Origin: Candidatus Aenigmatarchaeota archaeon
GTDB lineage: Archaea > Aenigmatarchaeota > Aenigmatarchaeia > Aenigmatarchaeales > JAHLMR01
Length of the DNA stretch: 27,015 bases
Assembly: GCA_018920255.1 (NCBI GenBank)
Contig: JAHLMR010000009.1
Location: forward strand, 1-27,015
Direction of reading: 5' to 3'
Shown here: one piece after another, positions 9,043 through 10,119 of the stretch
Numbering within the stretch: position 1 is the first letter of the stretch
How the letters are laid out: each line of letters begins with the position of its first letter
Position numbers and translations under genes: made by a program
The notes under the pieces: model-generated
The model's input: the letters and a program-made list of their open reading frames with translations, nothing else
Told to the model about the DNA's origin: nothing
Database searches by the model: none

Positions 9043-9652
9043 AATTAAAAGAATGATGTTAGAAGAATTTTTGAAAAAAGAATTTTCAAAAGCAGGTTAT
9101 AGTAAATGTGAAATACAGCATACACCATTAGCAACAAGAATAATAATCTGGGTTCAAAAGCCAGGTATAATAATTGGAAGAAGTGGAAAGACAATAGAAT
9201 ATTTAACAGAAGTTTTAAAATCTCAATTTAATATAGAAAATCCTCAATTTGAGATTGAAGAAGTTAAAAATCCGTTTACTGATGCTCAAATTGTTGCTGA
9301 TTATATAGCTTCAGCAATTCAACGTGGTCTAAATTATAAAAAAGTTATAAATACAGCCATTCAAAACTGTATGGCTGCGGGCGCAATAGGAATTGCAGTT
9401 AGAATAAGTGGGAAACTTGGCGGTGCAATGGGAAGAACAGAAAAATTTTCTGCAGGCTATCTTAAATTTGCAGGAGCCCCAGCAGATAATATTGTACAGA
9501 AAGCATATTCAAAAGCTCAAGTTAAACTTGGGACAATTGGAATTCAAGTAAGAATTTTAAACGAAAAACCTGAAGAGCTTTTATTATTAGAAAAAATAAC
9601 ACAAGAAAATTTAAGTGATGCTCATGGCAATAATAAAGAAAAGACAACTTAA
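9014..9652 (+). CDS. rps3: Small-subunit ribosomal protein uS3
   Basis: 212 residues. The N-terminal KH domain has the GxxG loop IGRSGK (54-59) in GIIIGRSGKTIEYL; the C-terminal domain contains GAIGIAVRISGKLGGAMGR (about 122-140). It lies at the mRNA entry site of the small subunit. The ATG lies within the end of uL22, with AGGTG a few nt upstream. The 3' end overlaps uL29 by 29 nt, so three consecutive genes are interlocked. Confidence 0.98.
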   Translation: MKEKKIVQDKIKRMMLEEFLKKEFSKAGYSKCEIQHTPLATRIIIWVQKPGIIIGRSGKTIEYLTEVLKSQFNIENPQFEIEEVKNPFTDAQIVADYIASAIQRGLNYKKVINTAIQNCMAAGAIGIAVRISGKLGGAMGRTEKFSAGYLKFAGAPADNIVQKAYSKAQVKLGTIGIQVRILNEKPEELLLLEKITQENLSDAHGNNKEKTT

Positions 9653-9821
9653 TGAAATGAAAAAAGAAGAATTAATTAACAGATTAAATGAATTAAAATT
9701 AGAACTAGCAAAAGAAAAATCTAAAATAAAAATTGGAGGAGTACCATCAAATCCAGGCAAATTAAAAGAAATAAGAAAAACTATAGCAAGAATATTAACA
9801 AGGGTGAAAAAAACTGAGTGA
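9624..9821 (+). CDS. rpl29: Large-subunit ribosomal protein uL29
   Basis: 65 residues: two helices, rich in Lys and Glu, of the form MAIIKKRQLNEMKKEELINR, then a Gly-Gly turn (IKIGGVPSNPGKLKEIR) and a closing helix. The start is the fourth of several close methionines: GTGAT lies 4 nt before ATG 9624, as in eL19. It overlaps the end of uS3. Its final codons AGG GTG A supply the Shine-Dalgarno of aIF1. Confidence 0.94.
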   Translation: MAIIKKRQLNEMKKEELINRLNELKLELAKEKSKIKIGGVPSNPGKLKEIRKTIARILTRVKKTE

Positions 9822-10119
9822 TGTATGTAAAAAATGTGGATTACCAAAAGAGCTTTGTGTTTGTGGAACAATAGAAAAAGAAATGGTAAAAATACGTATA
9901 ACAACTGTAAAACGCTCTTTTGGAAAATTTGTAACAATAGTAAGTGGTTTAACTGAAAATACAAATCCAAAAGAAATAACAAAAAAATTAAAGCAAGAAC
10001 TTGCATGTGGTGGAACGTATAAAAATGGAAATATTGAATTACAAGGAAATCATGCTGAAAAAATAAAACAAATCCTAATAAAATTAGGATTTAATCCAGA
10101 ACAAATTGAAGTATCTTAG
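9814..10119 (+). CDS. Translation initiation factor aIF1 (SUI1), apparent CTG start
   Basis: 101 residues. aIF1 sits at the P site of the small subunit and rejects wrong start codons, like eIF1. The SUI1 core runs from VKIRITTVKRSFGKFVTIV to the end (KQILIKLGFNPEQIEVS). The archaeal N-terminal zinc site is intact: C5-x2-C8 and C15-x-C17 in DVCKKCGLPKELCVCG. To include it, translation must begin at CTG 9814: in-frame codons upstream are TGA AAA AAA, and no ATG, GTG or TTG occurs until ATG 9883. GGGTGA (9802-9807) lies 6 nt before the CTG. The start overlaps the uL29 stop by 8 nt. Starting at 9883 would give a 78-residue protein lacking the zinc site. Confidence 0.9.
   Translation: MSDVCKKCGLPKELCVCGTIEKEMVKIRITTVKRSFGKFVTIVSGLTENTNPKEITKKLKQELACGGTYKNGNIELQGNHAEKIKQILIKLGFNPEQIEVS

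Follow-up and report, generated by a model that had tools for sequence, protein, structure and literature searches.

A CTG start codon for the initiation factor aIF1 in Aenigmatarchaeota and a probable archaeal counterpart of IF3-type autocontrol

Introduction

In bacteria, infC has an ATT start in E. coli and an ATC start in Streptomyces, and its product, the initiation fidelity factor IF3, autoregulates its own synthesis (PMC5472188). The same study describes Streptomyces sigR, a gene with a GTC start that is repressed by IF3 (PMC5472188). In eukaryotes, eIF1 autoregulates through an AUG in poor context, as described by Ivanov (2010) and in a second paper, both as cited in PMC6237735. Regarding archaea, aIF1 of Saccharolobus is reported to discriminate in vitro against non-canonical starts and to destabilise improperly paired initiation complexes (PMC6237735, PMC8211752), and a review of archaeal initiation names AUG, GUG and UUG as starts (PMC7531240).

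In this study, we describe an archaeal aIF1 gene that starts at CTG, together with weak aIF1 starts in related and more distant archaea. The closest described system is infC, which is likewise a fidelity-factor gene with a weak start, where the class of the codon is kept while the codon itself varies, as between E. coli and Streptomyces (PMC5472188). Nevertheless, IF3 is not homologous to aIF1 and belongs to another domain, autocontrol is proven for IF3 only, and weak aIF1 starts occur in some archaeal lineages only. Eukaryotic eIF1 is a homologous factor of the SUI1 family that disfavours its own start (cited in PMC6237735), but it keeps an AUG in poor context, whereas the aIF1 codon is weak in itself and is placed by a Shine-Dalgarno sequence. 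In the case of sigR, a non-canonical start is also read by an initiation fidelity factor (PMC5472188), although the gene is a target and not the fidelity factor's own gene. A published report of weak aIF1 starts was not found in the open-access literature. IF3 and eIF1 already exemplify the principle; the archaeal form of it, combining a weak codon, a SUI1-family factor and placement by a Shine-Dalgarno sequence, appears to be undescribed.

Results

The window, that is, the whole stretch of 27,015 nucleotides of Candidatus Aenigmatarchaeota archaeon that was analysed, carries the aIF1 gene inside a ribosomal protein operon, at 9814..10119 of the forward strand (101 aa). Directly upstream, on the same strand, lies the uL29 gene (9624..9821, in an ORF spanning 9615-9821), an arrangement shared by almost every genome of the phylum; the two genes overlap by 8 nt, uL29 ending with the TGA at 9819-9821. 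Judged from its sequence, the predicted protein is a clear archaeal aIF1, full-length and including the N-terminal zinc knuckle. It matches NCBIfam NF002096 with 126 bits (cut-off 98) and aligns with residues 2-100 of the solved archaeal aIF1 4mo0 (E 4e-29). The gene is single-copy in the window genome. A scan of genome contigs gave three distant matches only. NCBIfam lists this family of archaeal aIF1 proteins as 'stress response translation initiation inhibitor YciH', a name that may mislead annotation. Elsewhere in the window, at 7-109 of the reverse strand, a tRNA gene is recognised by Rfam and not by ARAGORN; its length of 103 nt suggests an intron.

The aIF1 frame reads TGA (9805) AAA AAA CTG (9814) AGT GAT GTA TGT (9826) and is open to the TAG at 10117-10119. 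The initial annotation had proposed that the zinc site (C5, C8, C15 and C17) is in frame with the SUI1 core and that no standard start precedes it, and both proposals hold: the four cysteines are TGT codons at 9826, 9835, 9856 and 9862 (codons 5, 8, 15 and 17 from the CTG), and ATG, GTG and TTG are absent between the in-frame TGA that closes the frame upstream (9805..9807) and the first zinc cysteine. Residue 2 of 4mo0 pairs with the codon that follows the CTG (9814..9816). A Shine-Dalgarno sequence, GGGTGA, was likewise located where it had been described, at 9802..9807, 6 nt ahead of the CTG, and the GGTG in it ends 7 nt ahead of this codon, which is the commonest spacing among weak-start relatives. 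Two neighbouring codons, GTG 9818 and ATG 9821, were rejected as aIF1 starts, as they lie in another frame, closing at TAG 9872-9874. The start at CTG is well supported by this reading of the frame, by the alignment with 4mo0 and by the occurrence of CTG, ATA, ATC or ATT at this place in 31 further aIF1 genes of the phylum and 23 of other phyla.

The window genome is the sole representative of its family among those sampled for the genus- and family-level comparison of aIF1, and for this reason the search was widened to the aIF1 start regions of the phylum. CTG, ATA, ATC and ATT were taken as weak starts and ATG, GTG and TTG as standard ones, with a uniform call over the sampled genes. The phylum has 94 ATG starts, 9 GTG or TTG starts and 32 weak starts (13 ATA, 10 ATC, 8 CTG and 1 ATT), besides aIF1 genes lacking the zinc motif and a small number extended at the N-terminus, about 140 genes in total. 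In 20 of the 32, the frame contains no ATG, GTG or TTG from its upstream stop to the first cysteine, and in 3 the sole standard codon is the one directly before that cysteine. The other 9 have a GTG or TTG in frame slightly upstream of the weak codon or beside it, mostly within or adjoining the Shine-Dalgarno sequence; we judge these codons too close to it to be likely starts, so the weak label is here a matter of judgement. The first cysteine lies 3-4 codons after weak starts in this phylum, and most often 4 after ATG starts.

Within the order of the window genome, CTG is found at the homologous place in 7 other genomes, from 4 other families, and ATA in 3 more. ATG is the aIF1 start in the majority of the phylum's genomes, and 5 members of the clade with CTG and ATA use ATG or GTG, which indicates that the weak start is not essential. 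The comparison of aIF1 starts in relatives, which the initial annotation had put forward as a check, therefore came out on both sides: many relatives have a weak codon and some have ATG or GTG at the same position, so that the trait varies among lineages, while the start in the window stays non-standard. A single ACG start call (L122) proved false, the protein having an N-terminal extension with an upstream ATG. Two variants of the N-terminal region were also observed. One family (f11; L052, L062, L078, L087 and L121) has an additional CxxC pair before the usual zinc knuckle, and several lineages have an aIF1 with no zinc knuckle (L140, L144, L145, L340-L342 and L346-L351), with standard starts where these are readable.

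Outside the window, weak aIF1 starts were found in 54 other sampled archaeal genomes, of which 31 belong to the same phylum and 23 to two others; such starts thus recur in at least three archaeal phyla. The second phylum, with 28 genomes sampled, contributes 17 CTG starts, of which the majority follow a GGAGGTG. The third, the phylum of genome G567, which we infer to be Asgard-like, has at least 6 weak cases (at least 4 ATA and 2 CTG) among the 30 aIF1 genes read. A CTG case listed among other archaea (L241) is the same gene as one already placed in this Asgard-like phylum (L319). No weak start was seen in the sampled Thermoproteota, in two smaller phyla or in about 60 further archaea, all of which have ATG, TTG or GTG.

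Some of these genes differ between close relatives. In one family of the second phylum (f60; L280, L282 and L286 against L275 and L277), one genus reads ATG AGC GCG CAA in frame where its sisters have ATGAGCGCTGCAA, so that a single-base difference decides whether the gene starts at ATG or at CTG; in the sisters, the ATG is out of frame. An ambiguous case is present in the Asgard-like phylum, where L297 has an ATA and a two-base insertion through which an upstream ATG comes into frame, and its sisters L299, L301 and L305 have ATG. In one lineage of Thermoproteota (L152-L175), a TTG start of aIF1 is near-universal, which may be a less extreme version of the weak-start device.

The neighbouring genes do not share the weak start. 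Among the uL29, uS3, rnp1, uL14, uL24 and uL22 genes of genomes of the same phylum, none of 234 lacks a standard start, and neither does any of the 16 genes for another initiation factor, aIF1A, that were found in the same order. The operon controls inside the weak-start genomes themselves all have standard starts. Comparison of the strict aIF1 cases (20/140) with the controls (0/250) gives a Fisher p of 5e-10, which ignores relatedness and serves as a guide only. Among the genes compared, the weak start is therefore a feature of aIF1 alone; judged by the control genes, these genomes have not relaxed their start codons in general. One aIF1A gene that seemingly had no standard start (L363) does have an ATG, and seven uS17 genes called as having none are an alignment artefact, with a Met within a few codons in each.

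The weak codons are paired with strong ribosome binding sites. GGTG is present ahead of 45 of the 55 weak starts, with a spacing of 6, 7 or 8 nt in all 45, and the predicted Shine-Dalgarno pairing, calculated with an assumed archaeal 16S tail, has a median of -12.7 kcal/mol at weak starts versus -9.75 kcal/mol at ATG starts (p = 1e-8). On a tree made from aIF1 plus uL29 (168 columns, many forks weakly supported), one clade has weak starts in 25 of its 30 genes. A subclade on the same tree is weak throughout (14/14), with ATA, ATC and ATT exchanged for one another and no return to ATG: the codon drifts but remains weak. Over the whole tree, weak and standard starts replaced each other at least 8 times. 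Together, the strong Shine-Dalgarno sequences and the drift within the weak class suggest selection for weakness, as in bacterial infC. A poor codon paired with a strong ribosome site would be unexpected if merely little aIF1 were wanted, and the identity of the codon drifts while its weak class stays.

Discussion

All these data lead us to propose that aIF1 is made from the CTG at 9814, placed by its Shine-Dalgarno sequence, and limits its own synthesis, which we consider the best explanation and a probable one. In this scheme, the GGGTGA would position the ribosome on the CTG, which the initiator Met-tRNA would decode, presumably as methionine. aIF1 would then destabilise initiation complexes on non-AUG codons, its own CTG, AUA, AUC or AUU included. 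When aIF1 is plentiful, little new aIF1 would be made, and when it is scarce, more would be produced, the level of the factor thereby governing the use of its own codon. We infer this feedback because the discrimination by aIF1 in vitro is published and because of the analogy with infC and eIF1. An archaeal counterpart of the control described for IF3 had been suggested in the initial annotation; the comparative part of this suggestion has gained strong support (a weak class that is kept, repeated origin, a strong Shine-Dalgarno sequence and specificity to aIF1), while the feedback itself is proposed.

Among the alternatives, the one that survives best accepts the CTG as real and supposes that it keeps aIF1 output low and constant compared with the ribosomal proteins of the operon, without feedback. 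Weak starts generally reduce output, and aIF1, lying within a ribosomal protein operon, may be needed in smaller amounts than its neighbours. Nevertheless, the Shine-Dalgarno sequence is stronger at weak starts, contrary to simple down-tuning, no weak start was seen in other genes of the operon, and the known activity of aIF1 makes a dependence on its level hard to avoid. We regard this explanation as unlikely.

Far less probable is a fusion of uL29 and aIF1 through a frameshift or slippage of the polymerase at the A-run (9807-9813). Seven A are found at the junction of the two genes and a shift of one base would join the frames; however, the uL29 stop and the weak start are separated by anything from -14 to +50 nt (one outlier of 321), with all frames represented, many uL29 stops precede the weak start, and the A-run is not conserved, whereas the Shine-Dalgarno spacing is. 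It is this variation in distance and frame, against a constant spacing, that speaks against a fusion. Just as improbable is a start at the internal ATG at 9883..9885 of the forward strand, which we dismissed as the principal start. No standard in-frame start codon of the gene comes earlier, and initiation there would yield an aIF1 without the zinc knuckle, as exists in some archaeal lineages, but among 191 aIF1 genes only that of the window has a Met in this column, the CKKCGLPKELCVC upstream is preserved in both phase and sequence, and a Shine-Dalgarno-like sequence was not seen just before the codon. The initial annotation had named both this Met and a sequencing error as possible refutations of the CTG start, and the comparison of sequences speaks against both. 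A change of ATG to CTG by sequencing or assembly error, for which the window genome, as the only sampled member of its family, offers no near copy for comparison, is practically excluded because weak codons recur at the homologous place in the relatives from the same order described above.

A start at CTG with self-limited synthesis of aIF1 has a broader form, which we hold as likely, if slightly less firmly: archaea would possess a convergent loop of the IF3 type, with a self-rejected start gained repeatedly in at least three phyla and kept by selection in some clades, autocontrol then being present in all three domains. In practical terms, gene finders restricted to ATG, GTG and TTG would truncate aIF1 in weak-start lineages, removing its zinc knuckle. 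If true, archaeal autocontrol would provide a natural reporter for the judgement of start codons by archaeal ribosomes. It would also represent a convergence between the non-homologous IF3 and aIF1, and would complete the set formed with bacteria (IF3, AUU/AUC) and eukaryotes (eIF1, poor-context AUG).
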